DNA from: an uncultured Silvanigrella sp.
Lineage (GTDB): Bacteria; Bdellovibrionota_B; Oligoflexia; Silvanigrellales; Silvanigrellaceae
DNA: 33,083 nucleotides
Direction of reading: 5' to 3'
NCBI GenBank assembly: GCA_903932045.1
Contig: CAIZES010000437.1
Location: 1-33,083 of the forward strand
The stretch's first letter is position 1. Each line of letters opens with the position of its first letter. Below are positions 22,260 through 33,006 of the stretch, one piece after another. The notes below the pieces were generated by a model. That model was not told where the DNA came from. It saw nothing but the letters and a program-made list of their open reading frames with translations, and made no database searches. A program made the translations under genes and the position numbers.

Positions 22260-23165
22260 ATGGATGAAGCTTCCAATTCAAAACCAGAAACCAACACCAC
22301 AACCGACAACAGCCACACAACACGCATCTTTCTTGCCATTCCTGCCCGTCTTTGTTCTACCAGACTTCCCGAGAAACCACTTCAGGATCTCTGCGGAAAA
22401 CCTATGATATCTCGAGTTGCAGAACGCGCCCTAAAATTTGCAGAAGACTTGCAAAGGGCGCCTCAGATTGGAAACGTGTCTGTTTTGGTTGCAACCGACG
22501 ACACAAGAATTGCAAATGCGGTAAAGCGCCTGGGCGCGCAGGCTGCCATAACCTCCCCCGAACTCCGAAGCGGAACCGATCGCATATTTGCGGCACTAGA
22601 ACCTCTGCATTTGAACGAAGACGATTTGGTTATCAACATTCAAGGCGATGAACCTTTTTTTTCGTACGAAGACGTTTTTGCGCTCATTCAAAAAATGTTG
22701 GAATCTCCCACTATTCCCATGGGAACCCTCGCATTTTCAAGAACATCTGCCGCTCATTTTTTTAGAAGTTCGGTTGTCAAAGTTATTGCAGATGCAAATA
22801 TGCGCGCCATTTATTTCACCCGAGCTCCTGCTCCCTGGCCGCGCTCATTGCTAGGAGCCTCGGGGAATGAGTGGATGAAGAGTGACCTCACGAACACCAC
22901 CATTCAACCCTTCTTACATCACCTTGGTGTGTATGCATATCGATGGAAGGCTCTGAGAGAATTCTCTCGGAATCTTCCTCAAAGTCACCTAGAAAACCTT
23001 GAAGGACTAGAACAACTTCGCGCCGTTGAGGCCGGGTGGCACATCATTCTCGCCTTAGCAAAAGAAGAACCCTTTGGAATTGACACACCAGAAGATCTTG
23101 CTCAAGCTAATCAAATCATGTTGCAAAAACAAAATATCCTTCACGAAAAGGAAAAAAACTCATGA
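22260..23165 (+). CDS. kdsB: 3-deoxy-manno-octulosonate cytidylyltransferase (CMP-Kdo synthetase)
   Basis: Activates Kdo as CMP-Kdo for lipid A-core assembly. Visible motifs are AIPARLCSTRLPEKPLQDL (nucleotide-binding loop), VLVATDDTRIANAV, ELRSGTDRIFAAL, NIQGDEPFF, HHLGVYAYRWKALREF, and FGIDTPEDLAQAN at the end. The ATG at 22260 has GGGAG 7 bases upstream. It leaves an N-terminal extension of about 20 Thr/Asn/Ser-rich residues relative to E. coli KdsB, plus a longer C-terminus (302 versus 248). Starts at 22182 or 22197 would lengthen it further. The TGA stop overlaps the ATG of the next gene (ATGA at 23162-23165), so the two are translationally coupled. Confidence 0.93.
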   Translation: MDEASNSKPETNTTTDNSHTTRIFLAIPARLCSTRLPEKPLQDLCGKPMISRVAERALKFAEDLQRAPQIGNVSVLVATDDTRIANAVKRLGAQAAITSPELRSGTDRIFAALEPLHLNEDDLVINIQGDEPFFSYEDVFALIQKMLESPTIPMGTLAFSRTSAAHFFRSSVVKVIADANMRAIYFTRAPAPWPRSLLGASGNEWMKSDLTNTTIQPFLHHLGVYAYRWKALREFSRNLPQSHLENLEGLEQLRAVEAGWHIILALAKEEPFGIDTPEDLAQANQIMLQKQNILHEKEKNS

Positions 23166-26100
23166 AACCTTTTCAGCGTTCCCTAAAATTTCCACGCTCT
23201 TACAACAAATCATTTGTGAAATCATTTGTGAAATCATTTGTGAAATCATTTGTGAAGTTTTGTACTCTTTCCTGGATCGGAGTAGCACCAATTGCTCAAG
23301 GAGTTCCCACGGCATTCTTGCTCACCGAATCGGGAAACCAGAAAGATACCAAATGGAAAACAGTAGAGTCGAATAAATTCAAGGTCTATCACGAAGAAAA
23401 CGCAAAAAATCTTGGAGAATACGCTTTAAAATCAGTGGAAACAGCATGGCCATATCTCAGCTTTCTTTTGAACGAACGAATGGCAAACGAATCTAACAAC
23501 GAACGCTTTGCACTCCGAGAAAATACAGAGAACGTCCTGTTCTCACCAATATCTCTCATTTTAAATACACGCGCTGATAATGGTGGATTTGCAAACTTTG
23601 CAACACAGAATATTGAAGTCCAGGCCCAATCAGGAGCAAATGCCTCTCTGTTTCAGCATGAACTTGTACACCATGTTATGTACGAAAGAATGGACCCAAA
23701 AATGGGTCCAGGTGGACGCGCCTTCAGCATTGGCCTTATGCCCACGTGGTGGATTGAGGGACTCGCAGAATATTTTACTGAAAGCATGGGTCGCAACGAA
23801 ACCAACGGTATTGCCAGAACAATGGCACTCAGAAACGCTTGGCCAACGTGGGATTCTTTACATAATCTTTACAACTCGAACGGCGACTACGGAAAAGGAT
23901 ACGTCACATCTGGTCGGTTTTTTGGATTTCTTCGCAATAAGATTCCGCAAACCACAATTTCCAACTTGCACGATTCATTTTTCAAACGCGAACTCATCCC
24001 CCCCTTTGTCACAGCCACAAAATTTGCGGTTTCAGGAATATGGGACAAAAGTGGGCCCTCACTCTACTCCGAATTTCAGCAAAATCAAAAAGACTCTTGG
24101 ACACAAGATCTGGCCAATATGCCATCACTCCAAGCAAGCACAACCTCAAAAAACATTGCACAAAACAGAGGAACTCCCAAAACGATAGTTCTTGACCAAA
24201 AAACTTTTGTGCAAAGCTTTTTAGATTCCAAGCCCTATGAAAGCGCATTAATTGTTACAGAAATAGAATCCGGAAAAAGGACACGATTACCACTCGACAT
24301 AGAAGGTTCACAGATATTTTCATTTGCTCCTTGGGAACGCGCAAATGGCGGCTTTTGGACAACAGGTGAACACCTTTTCCCAAATGCAGTGCGAGGCAAT
24401 GATGTTCGCTACATTCGATTTGCAAACGACATCACGCACATTGAAAGCAAGTCTCTCAAACAACGCATCACTTTTCCTTTAAGCACGCGAAAAAAGCCAG
24501 TACTTGTTTCCCAAATAAAAGCTCTAGGAAATGGAAAAGCCTTTGCTGTTGGGCTTATGAAAGGCGATTCTTCGCTCTATCAAATTGATGCCGACAATAA
24601 GCGGTTTGAAGAAAAAATGCACTGGCCGGCCCCAATCCGAGTCAAACTTATTGAAGCCTCGGGAAACTTCACAAACTCCGAACTTCCTTGCAGCGACGTA
24701 TTAATCGAAAAAGATCTCGAACAAACATCCATCGAAAAATTTTGTTGGGACGGCACACACTCTACAATTCTTCCCGCGGGAAAATTGACAATCCTGAGCG
24801 CCGTAGAACGGGCGCCTGAAACCTTTCTGTTACGCATCGCTTGGGGGAACGCCTCTGGAATAGTGGAACTCAAAAATGGCAACGTAGCGGCCGGATTTTC
24901 TATTCCCGAGTGGGGCGAAGACCTCGTGGCATGGACAGCAAACAGCCAAGATACCGGTTTTTGGGTGTATAACGGAAACAGCTTCGACCTCGTGCGATTT
25001 TCGTTTGAAAAATCGCATTCCGAATGGGAAAAATGGGTAGCAACCCAACCTGCCAACTCTCCTTGGAAAAAGCCGAACGACTGGAATCCCTATGTTCCAC
25101 CCTTTGTGAAAATTGCAGAATCCGAAAAAAAATTACTTGCGCAAAATGCTACAAACAAAAATATCGCTGCACAAAATGCAAATGAAAACGAGAAAGATAA
25201 TGAGAAAGATAATGAGAAAAATAAGGATAAGGATAAAGAAACAAAAGACCACAATTCAACACAACACAATTCAACAGAGCCGCTGACAAAAACTTCTGCA
25301 CCGTATGTGGGACGCACCTTTTTTACGTATCCCACAATGCTACCCCCCTACTATGGAGGATGGGCGCTTGGCTTAGTGAGTATTCCATATATGGATGAAA
25401 TGGAACGTCATAGAATTGAAGTTTCTGGACAATATTACTTGCCCACAAAATCAACCAACATCGAAGTGCGATATGTCAACAATCGGATTTTTGACGCATT
25501 TGTGGTATCAGCTTTCTCTTTAGATAGGTACAACGGCACCTTTTATAATCAGTATTGCAAAATAACGGAAGAAAACCTCTATAGGCGGTGCGGTGCCTCG
25601 CAATATCCTGTGCCTGGACGTTACAACTTTGGATACGACGACTACCTCCACGACACGGGTATTTCTGTTGGAACAGCCCACAGACTACTTCCCTCCACAG
25701 CAATATTAAACTTCAACCTTCGCCTCTCAAAAATTCAACCGTATACCCAGCTTCTTGCCGACGAAGGGGGGGCTCTGGGAGCTCAAAGGGCAATGCTAGG
25801 TGCCGTGGGAGCAAGTCTCAGCGCACAAATCCATGAAAATGCGTTTTATATGGGCCCTCGCAACGAACCTGGGCACCGTTATCTCTTATGGAAAACTTCC
25901 TATTCACTCACCGGAGAAGGCAACCACGGCTTCGGAAAATCCTATGACTATAACAACAAAACAGTTCCAACACTAAACTTTCAACGGTATCGCCTCTCCG
26001 GCACATCTTCCTTCTCTTATAAGAATAATAGCGTTTCCATTCATGGCGAAATCGGCGGCACAACCGGTCCTGAAACACTCAATCTACGCGAACTTTATCA

Positions 26101-26494
26101 ACCCTACCGGACATATCTCTTAGGTTCGGGAATGGCCATGAACGGAATCAATATTCCGTTGCTGGGAAACGGCGGAATTTTCGCACGCGACAAAGGCAGT
26201 TATTCGTTCCGTTCTGACGTCAACTATTCCTTTCCTCTGTTGGATAACCTCGATTATGAATTCCTTGTTCTTTATCTCGAGTCCCTTCGCGGAGAAATTG
26301 TTGTGGGACGCGGCGGAGTTGCACAAACCGAGAGCTTCAAGAATATAGCCACCCGTGATGCAGTTAGCGCAGCCATTCGAGCCACAATAAACATCAAAGG
26401 TTTCCAAATCTTCCCCAGTTTGGCCTACGGACAGCTCATCGGAGAACCAGGATGGTCGTTGTTCTCGGAAATTTCATTTAGCCAGTTCTTTTGA
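23162..26494 (+). CDS. Gluzincin-type metalloprotease-like protein with C-terminal outer-membrane beta-barrel
   Basis: A 1110-residue protein. The N-terminal 50 residues resemble an unusual signal peptide carrying four KSFV repeats before FCTLSWIGVAPIAQG. Residues about 60-300 read as a peptidase_MA-like domain: FQHELVHHVMYERM has HExxH (His166, Glu167, His170) and WWIEGLAEYF supplies the likely third ligand Glu199. Residues about 330-660 alternate strands and WxxG-type turns like a beta-propeller. An Asn/Glu/Lys/Asp-rich linker (about 660-712) follows, then about 400 residues of amphipathic strands ending in SFSQFF with terminal Phe, as in outer-membrane barrels. The start overlaps the kdsB stop; AAGGA precedes it. 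I do not recognise a named family for the whole protein. Confidence 0.72.
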   Translation: MKPFQRSLKFPRSYNKSFVKSFVKSFVKSFVKFCTLSWIGVAPIAQGVPTAFLLTESGNQKDTKWKTVESNKFKVYHEENAKNLGEYALKSVETAWPYLSFLLNERMANESNNERFALRENTENVLFSPISLILNTRADNGGFANFATQNIEVQAQSGANASLFQHELVHHVMYERMDPKMGPGGRAFSIGLMPTWWIEGLAEYFTESMGRNETNGIARTMALRNAWPTWDSLHNLYNSNGDYGKGYVTSGRFFGFLRNKIPQTTISNLHDSFFKRELIPPFVTATKFAVSGIWDKSGPSLYSEFQQNQKDSWTQDLANMPSLQASTTSKNIAQNRGTPKTIVLDQKTFVQSFLDSKPYESALIVTEIESGKRTRLPLDIEGSQIFSFAPWERANGGFWTTGEHLFPNAVRGNDVRYIRFANDITHIESKSLKQRITFPLSTRKKPVLVSQIKALGNGKAFAVGLMKGDSSLYQIDADNKRFEEKMHWPAPIRVKLIEASGNFTNSELPCSDVLIEKDLEQTSIEKFCWDGTHSTILPAGKLTILSAVERAPETFLLRIAWGNASGIVELKNGNVAAGFSIPEWGEDLVAWTANSQDTGFWVYNGNSFDLVRFSFEKSHSEWEKWVATQPANSPWKKPNDWNPYVPPFVKIAESEKKLLAQNATNKNIAAQNANENEKDNEKDNEKNKDKDKETKDHNSTQHNSTEPLTKTSAPYVGRTFFTYPTMLPPYYGGWALGLVSIPYMDEMERHRIEVSGQYYLPTKSTNIEVRYVNNRIFDAFVVSAFSLDRYNGTFYNQYCKITEENLYRRCGASQYPVPGRYNFGYDDYLHDTGISVGTAHRLLPSTAILNFNLRLSKIQPYTQLLADEGGALGAQRAMLGAVGASLSAQIHENAFYMGPRNEPGHRYLLWKTSYSLTGEGNHGFGKSYDYNNKTVPTLNFQRYRLSGTSSFSYKNNSVSIHGEIGGTTGPETLNLRELYQPYRTYLLGSGMAMNGINIPLLGNGGIFARDKGSYSFRSDVNYSFPLLDNLDYEFLVLYLESLRGEIVVGRGGVAQTESFKNIATRDAVSAAIRATINIKGFQIFPSLAYGQLIGEPGWSLFSEISFSQFF
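23207..23254 (+). repeat. 12-bp tandem repeat, four perfect copies, in a signal-peptide region
   Basis: AAATCATTTGTG is repeated four times without change at 23207, 23219, 23231 and 23243, followed by a degenerate start of a fifth. Each copy encodes Lys-Ser-Phe-Val in the N-terminal region of the metalloprotease-barrel protein. Copy change would keep the frame. Confidence 0.95.
25187..25240 (+). repeat. 12-bp imperfect repeats in the linker of the metalloprotease-barrel gene
   Basis: AACGAGAAAGAT, AATGAGAAAGAT and AATGAGAAAAAT follow each other, then AAGGAT twice and AAAGAA. They encode an Asn-Glu-Lys-Asp repeat in the charged linker before the barrel. Confidence 0.85.
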
Positions 26495-26833
26495 AAAACA
26501 TTCCTCTAAAGCTAATGTGACGCGCTTTTGACACCCAAAATCACCAAACCCTCGAAACAAAACAAATTTTTCAAAAGCTGATCAAAATCAACAGCAGACC
26601 CTGAAAAAAAATTCCGCCAAATATTTGAACGGAGATGCAGTTATTATTGACTGTATCATAATTTTGACCGCACTCACCCCGCGAAAACATAGGGAAAATT
26701 CACGGTGAAAAGATTGCGCGTCAAAAACCCTATCTTGGTCAAAATTCAGACAGAAAACGCGCTGCAAATTTGAGGTAAAGTAAATTCAGGCAACAGCAAA
26801 TATATGCATCCTCGATTCTGAAATGGAGATCCT
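26495..26833. other. Intergenic region without recognised gene
   Basis: 339 bases between the metalloprotease-barrel gene and the flagellar operon, AT-rich. Several TTGAC-like boxes occur (TTGACT near 26648, TTGACC near 26670) and a CATAAT lies between them. No pair has good 16-18 base spacing. I found no sigma-54 (GG-N10-GC) or sigma-28-like promoter, no clear terminator and no tRNA. It presumably carries the promoter for the downstream operon. Confidence 0.5.
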
Positions 26834-29041
26834 GTGAAGTTTTCTTCGCTTGCAAAATTCGCGATTTGCACCGTATCGGGCCTTGTAGCACCGATCGAAA
26901 GCACGCGCGTTCTTGCAGCCGACGTCAGTTCACCGTCATCCAGCACAAATACAGATGAGAGTTTCAGACTTTCCTTTGAACTCAAAACACCGCGTCGCTT
27001 TGCTTCTCGATTTCGAAAAGCAACACGCACATTAGAAGTGCGCGTCACGCCAGCACAGGCAAAGGAATTCGATTCATCAACATTCTATGACACTCGATTT
27101 GTTCATCGCCTCGTCATTAGAGAAGACGCTGGCGAAGTGATTTTGGGATTTCAGTTGCGCAACGAAAACTTGGGTTGGCTTGTCACCTATCAAGAAAACC
27201 CGTGGCGTTTGGTTCTAGATCTCTGGAGAACCGATTCTGTTCCACACCTGACTCTTGAAGAACAATGGCAATGGCAAAATGACTTCGCCGGTGAACAACG
27301 TTCACAAAACGGCGCAGGTGCACTTTCGGGGAAACCGATCGCGAATAGCGGCACAAATAGTAACACAACCAAAATGCTCAGCAGCGTATCTAGCAGCGGA
27401 AACCCTCGCTCTAGCTCTGACTCTGGCTTACTCGAAGGTACCTCCAGAGGCACATCCGGAGGCAACGTTGCCCCACTGCAACAACCCACACGCAAAGGCT
27501 CAATCCCCGCAGCCTATGGGCGCATAGAAGAACTCATGACTTTTCCCAACGATCGCATTGAAGACCTTCAGCGACAAAGCGGCGAAGCCGTTGGGACAAC
27601 AAGCGAGTTTGCTCGCGTTAATGATCTTGCTGCGGCGCTTTACCTCTCTGGACGATCGGAGCCAGCCATTGGTGTTTATCGCCGTTTGGTATCGATGTCT
27701 GAAACAAAATTCCGCGAAAATCCCGAAAACCTATGGCGTGCCGGCGAGTCGGCGTTTCTAACGAGAAGATTCGACTTAGCAAAAGATTATTTCCGCACAC
27801 TTCAAAGTCTTTATCCAGACACAGGAGCAGGAAGTCAGGCTCGTCTCCGTTTGGCAGACATCGACATCCTTTCAGCCGAAGGACAACTCGAAAAATCGAA
27901 GTCCGATTCCATTGCGGTAACATATGCCGACATCGCTCTTTCAAAAACAAGCTCTGGTCCCGCAAAAATTGCCTCCAGTTTGCGAATATTGAAAGAAAAA
28001 ATCGATTCAAATCCGGAATCGGCAGGTATTTACCAACAAAATCTTGCACTCTGCGTTGGAAAAGATCTAGTTCCATTTGAAATGAGAAAAGATTGTTCGT
28101 ACATTAAAACTAGAAGCATCATCGAGAAAATCGAAATCAATAGCGCGGATAGGGAAGTGCAGGAATTTAAAAAGTTCACTTCGCAAGACCCTCGATGGCA
28201 ACAACTGGACGCCCGCATAGCTGCGCGCGTTCGCGACTTACTTATGGAATGCCAACAAAAGAAAACATGGGATACCTGGATAGACTTTGAACAAAATGCG
28301 CGTGCCAAACTTCTCGATTTCACACGCAGCGATGCCAACCTTCTCATGGCTCGCGCAAGTGCATGGGAGGCAGCCGGAAACATGAAGAACGCAGCAAAGC
28401 TCTACAGCCTTACATGGGACTCTACGTCCAACAGAATACTCAAAGATAACGCTGCTGCTCATGCCGCACTTGTTTCTGTAAAAAGCAAAAACTTGTCGGT
28501 TGGAGAAAAATATCTGCGCAGTTTAGAAAAGAGTCCAGCGCGCAAACAAGATGGTTTTAGCGCAGACACAGCCGAAACTTTGCGCACGCTTGCCCAACCA
28601 CCGTATCGCAACAAAACGGCTTTGAAACTTCTTGTGCACGAAATTTCAAATGCACGTTTTGTAGAACGAGACCTCTCAGCTCTATTAAATTATGCAAAAA
28701 TTCTTCGCGGAAGCAAAGAATCTGATACTGTTTACGAAAAAATATTAGCGCATCCCTCAAAAACTCCCGACGAAACCAAGAGCATCGAAACAATACTTTT
28801 CCAGTACAGCGAAGATCTCTCTCGTACCGGAAAAAATCAGAAGTCCGCAGAAATTCTCGCCGCTGTGGCGAATATACAAAGCGGAACCCGTCGCGCCGAA
28901 GCTGCCTACAAAGCTGGAATCGCATTTGCGCGCGCCGGGCAATTAGAAAAGGCCAAAACCAGTTGGCAAATTGCTGCCAGCGACATTTCGGACAAACGTT
29001 TCTCGACTCTGGCTAACGAAAGATTGGATCGAATTCGATAG
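26834..29041 (+). CDS. Exported AMIN-like/TPR protein heading the flagellar operon
   Basis: A 735-residue protein from GTG 26834, with GGAGA 5 bases upstream. A signal peptide is visible (KFSSLAKFAICTVSGLVAPI, cleavage near VLAAD). Residues about 40-135 (RLSFELKTPRRFASRF to NPWRLVLDLW) resemble an AMIN-type beta domain that binds envelope polymers. A Ser/Thr/Asn/Gly-rich stretch (about 155-215) follows. From about 240 on there are TPR-like helices (ARVNDLAAALYLSGRSEPAI, NLWRAGESAFLTRRFDLAKDYF, AEAAYKAGIAFARAGQLEKA). It ends 26 bases before the AAA+ regulator, so it is likely co-transcribed with the basal-body genes. A periplasmic scaffold or motor-accessory role is inference; I do not recognise a named protein. 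Confidence 0.7.
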   Translation: MKFSSLAKFAICTVSGLVAPIESTRVLAADVSSPSSSTNTDESFRLSFELKTPRRFASRFRKATRTLEVRVTPAQAKEFDSSTFYDTRFVHRLVIREDAGEVILGFQLRNENLGWLVTYQENPWRLVLDLWRTDSVPHLTLEEQWQWQNDFAGEQRSQNGAGALSGKPIANSGTNSNTTKMLSSVSSSGNPRSSSDSGLLEGTSRGTSGGNVAPLQQPTRKGSIPAAYGRIEELMTFPNDRIEDLQRQSGEAVGTTSEFARVNDLAAALYLSGRSEPAIGVYRRLVSMSETKFRENPENLWRAGESAFLTRRFDLAKDYFRTLQSLYPDTGAGSQARLRLADIDILSAEGQLEKSKSDSIAVTYADIALSKTSSGPAKIASSLRILKEKIDSNPESAGIYQQNLALCVGKDLVPFEMRKDCSYIKTRSIIEKIEINSADREVQEFKKFTSQDPRWQQLDARIAARVRDLLMECQQKKTWDTWIDFEQNARAKLLDFTRSDANLLMARASAWEAAGNMKNAAKLYSLTWDSTSNRILKDNAAAHAALVSVKSKNLSVGEKYLRSLEKSPARKQDGFSADTAETLRTLAQPPYRNKTALKLLVHEISNARFVERDLSALLNYAKILRGSKESDTVYEKILAHPSKTPDETKSIETILFQYSEDLSRTGKNQKSAEILAAVANIQSGTRRAEAAYKAGIAFARAGQLEKAKTSWQIAASDISDKRFSTLANERLDRIR

Positions 29042-29067: not shown

Positions 29068-30147
29068 ATGGGCGAACCTAGACCTGTCGGACTTTTTGAT
29101 TTGGATGTTCAGTCATTTGCTGGCAATATGTCAAGCAATTTGGCTGCTAAGGACCTCGGAATGTCGGACGTTCGACAAACCGAACAACGAATTTCTGAAG
29201 AGGAAATGCTCCGTCACTTCCCAACGCGCGACGAGAAAGTATACAAAGTTCTTGAAGTCGCTCGTACCATCGCACCTACAAAAGTCCCTGTTTTGGTGAG
29301 TGGCGAATCGGGAATCGGAAAAGAAATGCTAGCAAAGGCTGTGCATATTGCCGGCGGACGCGATCGCGGTCGCTTTATTATGGCAAGCTGCGGCAACCTT
29401 CCGCAAAATTTCTTTGACATGGAAATATTCTCTGCTCCCAATCGAAATCCTCATGATTTTGGCACGCGCGCTCCCGAAAGCTGCACGCTGATGCTCGATG
29501 AAGTTGCTGATCTCGATGCCACCATGCAGCTCCGCCTCCTCCGCGTACTGCGTGAGCAAGACACCGGCAAAGGAATTATCCGTCGCGGTACCGCTGCCGA
29601 TGCTCGCATCATTGCTTGCACATCAAAAAATTTGCAAGACGAAGTCAACGCGCAGCGATTTCGTGCAGATCTCTTTTACAAGATTCACGTCATCCATCTT
29701 GAATTGCCAAATCTTCGCACTCGTGCAATGGACGTCGATTTTTATTCAGAGATATTCTTACACGAATATAATAAGCAGTTCTCGAAGAACGTACAGCTTT
29801 CTCTTACAGCGAAGCAAGCTCTGCGCACATACACCTGGCCTGGAAATGTTCGCGAACTTCGCAATGTTATTCAACGTGCTGTATTGCTGGCAACTCGCGA
29901 CAGTATTGGTGTTGATGAACTCCACCTTGTACGCGCAAACAGTCGCACCGAAGTGGCACTTAACGACACACTTCCTCAAATTACACTGCGCGAACTTGAA
30001 CAACGCCTTATTTTGCAAACATTGCGCCGCATGAATGGCAATCGCACCCACACTGCAAAGGCACTGGGCATTTCGCTCCGCGCTCTTCGATACAAACTCA
30101 ACGAACTCGTCGACTGCGGTTACGAGGTAGAAGGCAAGAACGTATGA
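29068..30147 (+). CDS. AAA+ transcriptional regulator of NtrC/FlrC type lacking the GAFTGA loop
   Basis: A 359-residue protein from ATG 29068 with AGGAGG 7 bases upstream. There is no receiver domain; the first 50 residues are short and unlike known sensor domains. The AAA+ core is clear: Walker A GESGIGKE (79-86), FIMASCGNLP, Walker B TLMLDEVAD (about 140-148), LRLLRVLREQ, ARIIACTSKNL, arginine-finger region RFRADLFYKI, and WPGNVRELRNVI. A Fis-type helix-turn-helix closes it (NRTHTAKALGISLRALRYKL). Between helix NFFDMEIF and Walker B the segment is about 6 residues shorter than in NtrC, and the GAFTGA motif that contacts sigma-54 is missing. Its stop overlaps the flgB start (ATGA). Confidence 0.88.
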   Translation: MGEPRPVGLFDLDVQSFAGNMSSNLAAKDLGMSDVRQTEQRISEEEMLRHFPTRDEKVYKVLEVARTIAPTKVPVLVSGESGIGKEMLAKAVHIAGGRDRGRFIMASCGNLPQNFFDMEIFSAPNRNPHDFGTRAPESCTLMLDEVADLDATMQLRLLRVLREQDTGKGIIRRGTAADARIIACTSKNLQDEVNAQRFRADLFYKIHVIHLELPNLRTRAMDVDFYSEIFLHEYNKQFSKNVQLSLTAKQALRTYTWPGNVRELRNVIQRAVLLATRDSIGVDELHLVRANSRTEVALNDTLPQITLRELEQRLILQTLRRMNGNRTHTAKALGISLRALRYKLNELVDCGYEVEGKNV

Positions 30148-30569
30148 AGGTTGTTGCAAACCAGATGTTCTCAAAAGCCGATGCAGTCTTGGAGAGCGGA
30201 CTCAATCACCGCCTCAAACGCCAAGACGTGATCGTCTCAAATCTGGTGAACGCATACACACCTGGATATCGCGCTCTTGGCTACGAATTCGAAAATCAAA
30301 TGCAATCGGCATTGGAAAACAACGACGCTCTTCCTCTAAAAACAACAAATGAGCGTCACATGAAACACCCGGGCGTCACTGGCGACGGCGACGTTCGAGC
30401 CGACTTGCACGTAAAACCATCGGAAAGCATTGGAAACGATGGCAACTCAGTGGATGTCGATAAAGAAATGAGCGACATGGCAGCAAACCAACTCATCTAT
30501 CGCGCCACTGTAGAAGTCCTCAATAGGCGTATTGGAATGATGCGATATGGAATCAACGGAGGGAGGTAA
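30144..30569 (+). CDS. flgB: Flagellar basal-body rod protein FlgB
   Basis: A 141-residue proximal rod subunit. LKRQDVIVSNLVNAYTPGYRA is the conserved N-terminal rod signature; DVDKEMSDMAANQLIYRATVEVLNRRIGMMR is the FlgB C-terminal helix. Length is typical. It lacks a cleaved signal peptide, as expected for export through the flagellar type III apparatus. The start overlaps the regulator stop by four bases, indicating coupling. flgC follows 3 bases after the stop. Confidence 0.93.
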   Translation: MKVVANQMFSKADAVLESGLNHRLKRQDVIVSNLVNAYTPGYRALGYEFENQMQSALENNDALPLKTTNERHMKHPGVTGDGDVRADLHVKPSESIGNDGNSVDVDKEMSDMAANQLIYRATVEVLNRRIGMMRYGINGGR

Positions 30570-30572
30570 TCT

Positions 30573-31016
30573 ATGGGCTTCTTAGACACGCTCAAGATCA
30601 GTTCTTCGGGCCTTGCAGCCGAACGTATCCGCATGAACACAATTTCGCGGAATATAGCAAACGCAAATACAACGCGAGTAGAAGGACAAGAAGGCCCGTA
30701 CAAACGACAAGACGTGGTTTTTACCGCTACCAATACAGGAAATGAATTTGATGACCTCATGCGTCAAGCATTCGACCCTGGAGTTAAAGACGTAAAAGTA
30801 ACGGGCATCGTGCAAGATCAACGTGCACCAAAAATGGTGTACAATCCGGGACATCCTGACGCCGACAAAAACGGAATGGTAGCCATGCCCAACATTTCAG
30901 TTATGGAAGAAATGGTGAACCTGATAACAAGCAACCGTTCCTTTGAAGCAAACACAACGGCACTAAATTCAACAAAACAAATGGCGTCAAACGCGATTAA
31001 CATTGGTCGCGGCTAA
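30573..31016 (+). CDS. flgC: Flagellar basal-body rod protein FlgC
   Basis: A 147-residue rod subunit. The N-terminus FLDTLKISSSGLAAERIRMN, then SRNIANANTT, is the rod-family motif, and the C-terminal SVMEEMVNLITSNRSFEANTTALN with QMASNAINIGRG is characteristic of FlgC. The body carries KMVYNPGHPDADKNGMVAMPN, a FlgC hallmark. A strong GGAGGGAGG precedes the ATG. It continues the flgB-flgC-fliE-fliF order seen in many bacteria. Confidence 0.95.
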   Translation: MGFLDTLKISSSGLAAERIRMNTISRNIANANTTRVEGQEGPYKRQDVVFTATNTGNEFDDLMRQAFDPGVKDVKVTGIVQDQRAPKMVYNPGHPDADKNGMVAMPNISVMEEMVNLITSNRSFEANTTALNSTKQMASNAINIGRG

Positions 31017-31040: not shown

Positions 31041-31376
31041 ATGATTACAAAAGTTGGTGGCAACAGAATTGATCTCTCCCGAATTGAGTCAGACATTCGC
31101 TCAATGAACGATTCATTTGGATCGAAGGGCGCGAGTGCTACGGGCGACACAAAAGACTCTGGATTTCTGAATCTTCTCGAACAGGGAATTAAGGAAGTCA
31201 ATCAACAAATGAAAACAAGTGAAAAGGCTTCGATGGACTTGGTTTCGGGACGATCTTCCAACATCCACGAAACGATGTTGTCTGTTTCGCGCGCTGAAAT
31301 TGGCTTTAACATGCTTGTTCAGCTCCGAAATAAAGCCCTTGAAGCTTATCAAGAAGTCATGCGTATGCAGGTTTGA
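31041..31376 (+). CDS. fliE: Flagellar hook-basal body complex protein FliE
   Basis: A 111-residue protein. The C-terminal half, INQ-like KEVNQQMKTSEKASMDLVSG followed by NIHETMLSVSRAEIGFNMLV and LRNKALEAYQEVMRMQV, is the conserved FliE region that joins the MS ring to the rod. The N-terminal 40 residues are Ser/Asp-rich and variable, as usual. CAGGGGTGG lies 4 bases before the ATG. It sits 10 bases upstream of fliF. Confidence 0.93.
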   Translation: MITKVGGNRIDLSRIESDIRSMNDSFGSKGASATGDTKDSGFLNLLEQGIKEVNQQMKTSEKASMDLVSGRSSNIHETMLSVSRAEIGFNMLVQLRNKALEAYQEVMRMQV

Positions 31377-31386
31377 GGAGTAACCA

Positions 31387-33006
31387 ATGGTTGAACGTTT
31401 CCGAGCCTTCGTTGCGCAATTTTGGACTCAAGCCAAAACATTCTACTCGGGCCTTACAAAGGGACGCCGCATTGGAATTGGAATTGGCTTGGGCGTCGTT
31501 ATTGTCGCTCTTGTCTCGGCTGTTTTCTGGCGTCCTGAAAAAAGCTACGAAGTTGCCTACACAAATCTCACACAAGAAGATCGCACGGCCATCTTGGCGT
31601 ACCTCAAAAAAAGCTTGGTACAAGATTTTAAGCTTGAAGGCGGCACAATTTCATTTCCACAAGATCAAGTTCTAGACATCAAAATGAAACTCGCAGAAGA
31701 AGGACTTCCTGCAAGCGGTGTTGGCGTAGGTTGGGAAAAATTTGACGAAAAAGCTTTTGGAGCAACAGATTTCGATCAAAAAGTAAACAAACTTCGAGCC
31801 ATTCAAGGCGAACTTTCGCGTTCTATCAATCGCCTCGACCCTGTAGAAGCCAATCGCGTTCACATTGTTCTTCCCGATGGCGCTGTTTTTGCGGAAGACA
31901 AAAAACCAGCTACCGCAAGCATCTCTCTCAGACTTAAAACAGGAAAAACGCTTTCACAGCGGCAAATTCAAGGTATTTTGCACCTTGTTGCACGCGCTGT
32001 TGAAGGACTCGATCCTCAGAATATTGCAATTGTCGATCAAGAAGGAAACATGCTCACACGTCCCGAAGAAGACGACGGAGGGATTGATAGAGTCACAAGC
32101 GCACAACGTGAGTACCAAAAAAAGATAGAACGTGAACTCTCTGCAAAAGTAAAAGAAATTCTCGGGAGAGTTGTTGGATTCAACAAAGTTGTCTCAACAA
32201 TTCAGGCCGATGTCGACTTCAAAAAAGTGGAAACCACAATTCAGGACGTCGATCCCGAACGTTCCGCTGTTGTTTCGCAATCTCGCAGCGAACAGAGTAC
32301 GAACGGCACAGGCGTAAATCCCACGGGAGTACCTGGAGCCAAAAGTAATTTGCCCGGAGAAAAGGACGACATACAAGCCACATCCTCACAAAATAGCAGC
32401 AAACAAAATCAGGAACAAACGAACTTTGAATTCAAGAAAACTCTCAGTAAAGTTGTTGAGCCAATTGGCGCAATCAAAAAAGTGAGTGCAGCCGTTCTTG
32501 TTGATAACAAAATGGTTGAAGGAAAATACACCGCCAGAACACCTGAAGAAATGGCGATGATTACAAAACTAGTCAAGAGCGCAATTGGATTTCAGGAAGG
32601 TCGCGATACGCTTTCTGTTGAAACGGCACAGTTTGAAATGGACGAATTTGCACAAGCAGAACAAGCCTCGCTCACAACAAGACGAACCTCACTCATCCAA
32701 ACTGGAATCATTGCACTCGTTGCCATCAGCGGTCTCATCTTCCTGTTTTTCGCAGTTATCAAGCCTTACTTTCGTTGGCTTACGTTTGATCCCGAAAAAA
32801 GATCACAGGATCAATTCGGCGTGGTGGAATACGAGTTGGAACGCTCTGGAACCGCCGCAAAACGCGTGCAAGTAAAAGAAGAAGTTCCTTTCGAAAAACT
32901 TTCAGCTCGAGAACAAATTCTATACTTGGCCAAGAACGACCCCAAGAAGACCACGGAGGCCATTCGACAACTTCTATCCCCCAATGGTTACGGCGGTGGC
33001 GGCTAA
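31387..33006 (+). CDS. fliF: Flagellar MS-ring protein FliF
   Basis: A 539-residue MS-ring subunit. The first transmembrane segment is at about 28-47 (IGIGIGLGVVIVALVSAVFW). The ring-building motif YAYTNL-like VAYTNLTQEDRTAILAYL follows, then GLPASGVGVGWEKFD, ELSRSINRLDPVEANRVHIVLP and KTLSQRQIQGILHLVARAVEGL. A Gln/Ser/Asn-rich periplasmic loop spans about 290-355. The second transmembrane segment is at about 438-460 (GIIALVAISGLIFLFFAVI). The C-terminal LAKNDPKKTTEAIRQLL matches the FliG-binding tail. GAGGAG precedes the ATG. It ends at a TAA, and no fliG start is evident in the remaining 77 bases. Confidence 0.96.
   Translation: MVERFRAFVAQFWTQAKTFYSGLTKGRRIGIGIGLGVVIVALVSAVFWRPEKSYEVAYTNLTQEDRTAILAYLKKSLVQDFKLEGGTISFPQDQVLDIKMKLAEEGLPASGVGVGWEKFDEKAFGATDFDQKVNKLRAIQGELSRSINRLDPVEANRVHIVLPDGAVFAEDKKPATASISLRLKTGKTLSQRQIQGILHLVARAVEGLDPQNIAIVDQEGNMLTRPEEDDGGIDRVTSAQREYQKKIERELSAKVKEILGRVVGFNKVVSTIQADVDFKKVETTIQDVDPERSAVVSQSRSEQSTNGTGVNPTGVPGAKSNLPGEKDDIQATSSQNSSKQNQEQTNFEFKKTLSKVVEPIGAIKKVSAAVLVDNKMVEGKYTARTPEEMAMITKLVKSAIGFQEGRDTLSVETAQFEMDEFAQAEQASLTTRRTSLIQTGIIALVAISGLIFLFFAVIKPYFRWLTFDPEKRSQDQFGVVEYELERSGTAAKRVQVKEEVPFEKLSAREQILYLAKNDPKKTTEAIRQLLSPNGYGGGG

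Follow-up and report, generated by a model that had tools for sequence, protein, structure and literature searches.

Apparent departure of a flagellar-operon bEBP from sigma-54 in the Silvanigrellales

The flagellar bEBPs FlrC, FlbD and FleQ are textbook activators of sigma-54 promoters. The DNA analyzed here (the window, a stretch of 33,083 nucleotides from a genome of the Silvanigrellales, Bdellovibrionota, assembled to 4.2 Mb in 503 contigs) encodes, within an early flagellar operon, a protein of this type, here termed EBP1, that lacks the GAFTGA loop. A preliminary description of the window had proposed that EBP1 acts independently of sigma-54 or, alternatively, as the ATP-driven partner of another activator. 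In the literature collection searched, there was no study on flagellar regulation in the Silvanigrellales or on the EBP1 protein.

Composition of the operon and of EBP1

The last 6 kb of the window are occupied by close-packed genes on the + strand, namely tprX (26834..29041), EBP1 (29068..30147), flgB (30144..30569), flgC (30573..31016), fliE (31041..31376) and fliF (31387..33006). The contig ends after fliF, and the other flagellar promoters of this genome are covered by genome-wide pattern search only. Assignments are based on TIGR01396 and TIGR00205 scores over cut-off for flgB and fliE, respectively, on domain search for fliF, and on domain search and gene order in relatives for flgC and tprX. 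The latter ends 26 bp before EBP1, is the first gene of the operon in all relatives examined and encodes a 735-residue TPR protein whose N-terminus is signal-like. The EBP1 frame starts with ATG, just downstream of an AAGGAGG ribosome site, and is coupled to flgB by an ATGA overlap, as previously described. Just upstream of the operon, a 1110-residue ORF (23162-26494) presents weak matches to collagenase M9 and flagellinolysin (HExxH), and in a relative, G011, a large ORF close to the flagellar operon (L157:2046-8042) matches the Pfam TcdA/TcdB domains.

EBP1 (359 residues) is composed of a Sigma54_activat AAA+ domain (residues 54-211), an AAA_lid_14 lid (217-288) and a near-invariant Fis-type helix-turn-helix (HTH_8, residues 306-346, positions 29983..30105, delimited by domain search and ortholog alignment), with no receiver (REC) domain. 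Its PF00158 score (113 bits, cut-off 20.2), its PF25601 and PF02954 domains, and its Walker A and B motifs, lid and sensor 2 place it in the bEBP family, and AlphaFold and Foldseek assign it the bEBP fold, with matches to ZraR, NtrC1, FlrC, FleQ and VpsR. The best NCBIfam score is that of FlbD (NF050807, 221.5 bits), which falls below the curated cut-off of 750, and EBP1 is consequently not classed as an FlbD equivalog. The Walker motifs (GESGIGKE and LMLDE) and the helix-turn-helix are intact, in agreement with the preliminary description, and the 40-sequence alignment reveals retention of Walker A Lys85, Walker B Asp144/Glu145, the first finger Arg199 and the sensor-2 Arg262.

The preliminary description had also reported that the stretch before Walker B is about 6 residues short and devoid of GAFTGA. 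This holds: the stretch from the L1 replacement to Walker B (residues 119-145, codons 29422..29502, delimited by loop alignment and AlphaFold) reads EIFSAPNRNPHDFGTRAPESCTLMLDE and comprises 27 residues, as opposed to 33 in GAFTGA orthologs. A GAFTGA-like sequence elsewhere in the domain, the finding named beforehand as fatal to this reading, was sought throughout the AAA+ domain in the 40-sequence alignment and is absent. The claim of an intact arginine-finger region, on the other hand, proved wrong. Only Arg199 is kept, while the second arginine (equivalent to NtrC1 R299 and PspF R168 by alignment to NtrC1 and the literature), which contacts the gamma-phosphate in trans (PMC7175178), is replaced by Lys205 (codon aag, 29680..29682) in EBP1 and in all the Silvanigrellales orthologs aligned; it is arginine in 29 of the 30 other proteins of the alignment. 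The loss goes deeper than initially reported in other respects too, since the switch asparagine has become S107, the sensor-1 asparagine S186 (both of which vary within the Silvanigrellales, whereas Lys205 is invariant), and loop L2 (ERIGG...) a Silvanigrellales-specific NKGxIRRGTAAD. The structure model, in which the L1 loop had been suggested as a check, leaves residues 125-134 below pLDDT 50 and does not form the L2 strands, while a nearly identical alignment yields L1 and L2 loops with pLDDT of about 87-93 for the GAFTGA ortholog of G020, with block means of 87-91 across L1; these models are single chains built on shallow alignments (38-40 sequences).

EBP1 hence lacks what defines a functional sigma-54 activator (an L1 GAFTGA, a complete arginine-finger pair and, as reported below, a -24/-12 operon promoter) and presents the L1 deletion with retained helix-turn-helix that characterizes GAFTGA-less bEBPs acting with sigma-70. 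It has gained an N-terminal peptide (GLFDLD, 29089..29106) conserved as [GQ]LFD[LIV][DE] in all 13 readable Silvanigrellales orthologs and in none of 16 others, which lies in a disordered stretch with pLDDT below 50 and constitutes a possible docking motif.

Orthologs and the promoter upstream of tprX

The gene order tprX-EBP1-flgB-flgC-fliE-fliF is identical in the five relatives examined (G011, G016, G020, G034 and G054), and in the four of these outside the Silvanigrellales (G016, G020, G034 and G054) a fliI-like gene is found two genes after the flagellar set. In a tree inferred without the loop columns, the Silvanigrellales proteins form a single clade (100/100) with a stem of 1.51 changes per column, so that gene order and phylogeny both identify EBP1 as an ortholog of the class-wide flagellar protein. 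GAFTGA is absent from all 13 Silvanigrellales orthologs read at the loop (the window's own, L095-L105 and L107), and all present the lysine finger; outside this set, the G003 protein matches EBP1 at 73% over 358 residues. Assembly error or chance can be rejected as the cause of the loop loss, given the agreement of all Silvanigrellales orthologs. In the other families of the class, syntenic orthologs carry GAFTGA or GSFTGA, with the exception of G034 (L109) and G054 (L108). The latter are placed separately among GAFTGA proteins in the same tree, which implies three independent losses of GAFTGA. Both G034 and G054 keep the -24/-12 promoter and the arginine finger, and in G034 the Walker B glutamate has changed to aspartate.

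Within the Silvanigrellales, dN/dS for EBP1 ranges between 0.006 and 0.05 in measurable pairs, and the helix-turn-helix is almost unchanged. Both observations indicate a functional gene, and the dN/dS values lead us to reject a pseudogene. As far as can be read from the sequences, the history of EBP1 is one of rapid change followed by strong constraint.

A -24/-12 site is located upstream of tprX in all 14 testable genomes outside the Silvanigrellales. The site was identified in G016 (TGGCACGGCATTTGCT) and G020 (TGGCACACAAATTGCT), as well as in G034, G054 and L023, and it lies 2.4-2.7 kb upstream of EBP1 in G018, G031, G041, G043, G045, G046, G047, G051 and G053. For these last nine genomes, a genome-wide pattern search was compared with EBP1 positions (G025 was left out, its contig being too short), and chance is not a plausible source of nine sites in that interval because each genome contains only about 4-20 such sites. 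Across nine Silvanigrellales genomes, the region upstream of tprX scores at most 7.7 of 20.5, and mostly below 5, against 15-19 in the other genomes, the score matrix being approximate, written from the known consensus and untrained. Likewise, none of the exact -24/-12 sites of nine Silvanigrellales genomes lies upstream of the flagellar operon. Of the 10 exact sites in S. cienkowskii (G010), not one adjoins any flagellar locus located, including fliG, fliM-fliA, flgG, flgD-flgE, the flagellins, motAB, flgI and flgK; 2.0 Mb of this genome were read and flagellar promoters beyond were assessed by pattern search. Some of the ten flagellar starts scored in G010 are operon-internal, and the genome-wide exact search covers the true starts. 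The scan was able to detect a -24/-12 site in G011 (L157:17573), 60 bp before the tssB-like type VI secretion genes right behind fliF, and hence works in that genome. Across the whole window, the canonical pattern with up to two mismatches matched 18 times, versus 20.8 expected, and is indistinguishable from noise. A sigma-54 promoter within tprX, just before EBP1, was also considered and rejected (best score 7.2 of 20.5). The contrast in putative sigma-54 promoters between the Silvanigrellales and the outgroup is firm for the tprX operon only.

In the place of that promoter, an element reading GTCAAAA...GGTCAAAATTCAGACAGAA (26720..26755, + strand) constitutes a candidate operator or promoter, and its pattern (GTCAAA-N-[GT]G[AT]CAA-N5-AGAC[AT]G) is common to seven Silvanigrellales and has a single match in the 2.0 Mb of G010, upstream of tprX. 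The dyad TTTGAC-N1-3-GTCAAA has two perfect copies in the same 2.0 Mb, one preceding tprX (with N2, 67 bp before the frame) and the other a flagellin gene. Upstream of tprX, the Silvanigrellales and the outgroup alike show an enrichment of CGYCAAA, although this motif was chosen after inspection and its shuffle values carry no selection correction, and it suggests that the sites of EBP1 may have outlived the sigma-54 promoter.

Sigma-54, EBP2 and the likely mode of action of EBP1

The promoter loss does not reflect loss of sigma-54 from the genome, which was rejected: rpoN, one of the genes that the preliminary description proposed to look for, is present in all 14 family genomes searched. In 10 of 11 Silvanigrellales, against none of 11 other class members, it is located directly 3' of a pair of flagellin genes (G000 C241, L172:8427-11927, with a gap of about 40 bp; also G002, G004-G008 and G010-G012). 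A second flagellar activator with GAFTGA, also suggested beforehand, was found in part. EBP2 (PocR-type by eye, C292:113-1729 in the genome of the window) has an ortholog, 52-59% identical, in each of the 11 other genomes searched; in several relatives, but by coordinates not in the Silvanigrellales, its gene is linked to flagellin. Its loop is GAFTGA or GSFTGA in all nine proteins read outside the Silvanigrellales, G034 and G054 included, and near-GAFTGA (GSFTNA, GAFTNA or GAFTSA) in all Silvanigrellales read. NorR with asparagine at the same glycine still opens sigma-54 promoters, and with serine is active without signal (PMC2941729); by analogy, Silvanigrellales EBP2 may still be sigma-54-competent and could bring sigma-54 into the flagellar cascade through a non-canonical promoter.

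That L1, L2, the arginine finger and the -24/-12 promoter have been lost together, in a genome that retains rpoN, supports the sigma-54-independent control first proposed. At the level of sequence, what is shown is a concerted loss of the predicted sigma-54 contacts, the finger and the promoter, with retention of ATP-binding residues, helix-turn-helix, synteny and constraint. We consider it probable that EBP1 regulates the early flagellar operon, and with it its own gene, independently of sigma-54 and together with a sigma-70-class holoenzyme, and that it binds DNA and ATP but hydrolyses the latter poorly. It descends from the sigma-54 activator that members of the class encode within their first flagellar operon. 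As the comparison shows, this protein lost L1, had L2 rewritten and exchanged its trans-acting arginine finger for lysine in the ancestor of the Silvanigrellales, and the operon lost its -24/-12 promoter. The kept nucleotide-binding residues, lid, fold and almost unchanged helix-turn-helix, together with strong purifying selection, indicate that EBP1 most likely forms an ATP-stabilised oligomer on its former enhancer-type sites upstream of tprX, for which the CGYCAAA elements are candidates, and thereby controls the operon that encodes it. There it would recruit or occlude sigma-70-class RNA polymerase without ATP-driven sigma-54 remodelling, and the conserved GLFD[LI][DE] peptide might, speculatively, contact a replacement partner. 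Counting against this explanation, a consensus sigma-70 promoter is not recognizable upstream of tprX: of the 3 sites in the region, against 3.4 expected, none is located there.

The partner role envisaged in the preliminary description would take the form of mixed EBP1-EBP2 hexamers in which EBP2 supplies the sigma-54 contact, as in the FleQ/FleT pair of Cereibacter (Rhodobacter) sphaeroides, where the FleT gene shares an operon with fliEFGHIJ and its product acts together with FleQ (PMC7277832, PMC11999139). The wide distribution of EBP2, its flagellin linkage in several relatives and the activity of the NorR variant speak for this arrangement, and G034 and G054, with an EBP1 devoid of GAFTGA and an intact -24/-12 promoter, arginine finger and EBP2 GAFTGA, look like such partner states. 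In the Silvanigrellales, however, the finger that a neighbouring subunit would need in trans is a lysine, a -24/-12 element is missing from the target promoter and EBP2 is, by coordinates, not linked to flagellin, so that the partner role fits the genome of the window poorly. We hence regard mixed hexamers as unlikely in this group.

A dedicated repressor, that is, a negative autoregulator occluding the flagellar promoter, partly overlaps the auto-regulator proposed above and seems to us somewhat less plausible still. Several sigma-70 promoters are known to be repressed by Caulobacter NtrC (PMC10274813), and the one further perfect copy of the G010 dyad lies just upstream of a flagellin gene, but exact copies of the dyad are confined to the G009/G010/G012 group and sequence does not separate activation from repression. 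Least probable of all is that the replacement segment is a remodelled L1 engaging sigma-54 at a diverged promoter: sigma-54 is indeed retained and every Silvanigrellales ortholog read has an acidic-aromatic pair ([DE][YF]) in the segment, but its length (from the ELF equivalent to DE) varies between 22 and 30 residues, it is unstructured in the AlphaFold model while the loop of the GAFTGA ortholog is modelled with confidence, the -24/-12 promoter is absent, and G[AS]FT[GN]A is still present in five of the genome's six other bEBP domains, which leaves sigma-54 with no reason to change its contact.

In a further reading, which we put forward only tentatively and consider rather doubtful, the hierarchy is inverted and Silvanigrellales sigma-54 stands below the flagellar cascade instead of above it, with the early operon freed by a degenerate bEBP, the EBP2 loop drifted to G[AS]FT[NS]A and rpoN behind two flagellin genes. 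If so, expression of sigma-54 targets, such as type VI secretion genes, would follow that of the flagellar genes.

Precedents and related bEBPs

Several known regulators provide partial precedents. The NtrC proteins of Caulobacter and R. capsulatus and VpsR lack GAFTGA and act at sigma-70 promoters, and in R. capsulatus NtrC it is ATP binding, not hydrolysis, that matters (PMC10274813). Similarly, the flagellar bEBP FleQ can dispense with ATP hydrolysis when it acts at sigma-70 promoters (PMC10723142). EBP1 shares with both NtrC proteins a deletion around the L1 loop and a retained helix-turn-helix but, unlike these REC-bearing regulators of nitrogen genes, it is REC-less and resides in a flagellar operon, and both its arginine finger and the sigma-54 promoter of that operon have been lost as well. 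Vibrio cholerae VpsR, another bEBP-like protein without GAFTGA, matches EBP1 in sequence and fold (7v2b), although it responds to c-di-GMP, regulates biofilm formation and carries an N-terminal domain, and core identity is about 30%. With FlbD and FlrC, EBP1 has in common its location in a flagellar operon, and FlrC structures are among its matches, but FlbD and FlrC keep GAFTGA and drive sigma-54 promoters. In a similar vein, FleT is an unusual bEBP encoded with early flagellar genes that works beside a second bEBP; FleT, however, lacks the DNA-binding domain, whereas EBP1 lacks the sigma-54 loop and keeps its helix-turn-helix.

Beyond these precedents, what is new, judging from the sequences, is the joint loss of L1, arginine finger and target promoter of a flagellar bEBP in a single ancestor, along with two separate later losses of the loop (G034 and G054) with the promoter kept. 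In the Silvanigrellales, a flagellar gene switch thus appears to have passed to a different form of RNA polymerase. The putative conversion maps to an identifiable ancestor, close relatives retain the original system and two show an intermediate state (loop lost, promoter kept), a natural series that makes testable the order of the steps by which a bEBP leaves sigma-54.

Other bEBPs of interest were encountered in these genomes. A second GAFTGA-less bEBP (ELFGLSRDGCATRAGRLEF; G000 C216:50015-50503, L165:9151-10704) adjoins a chemoreceptor-like gene, and in G011 a bEBP is found beside a similar chemoreceptor-like gene (L163:16093-17580). The type VI secretion cluster of G011 has its own GAFTGA response-regulator bEBP nearby.
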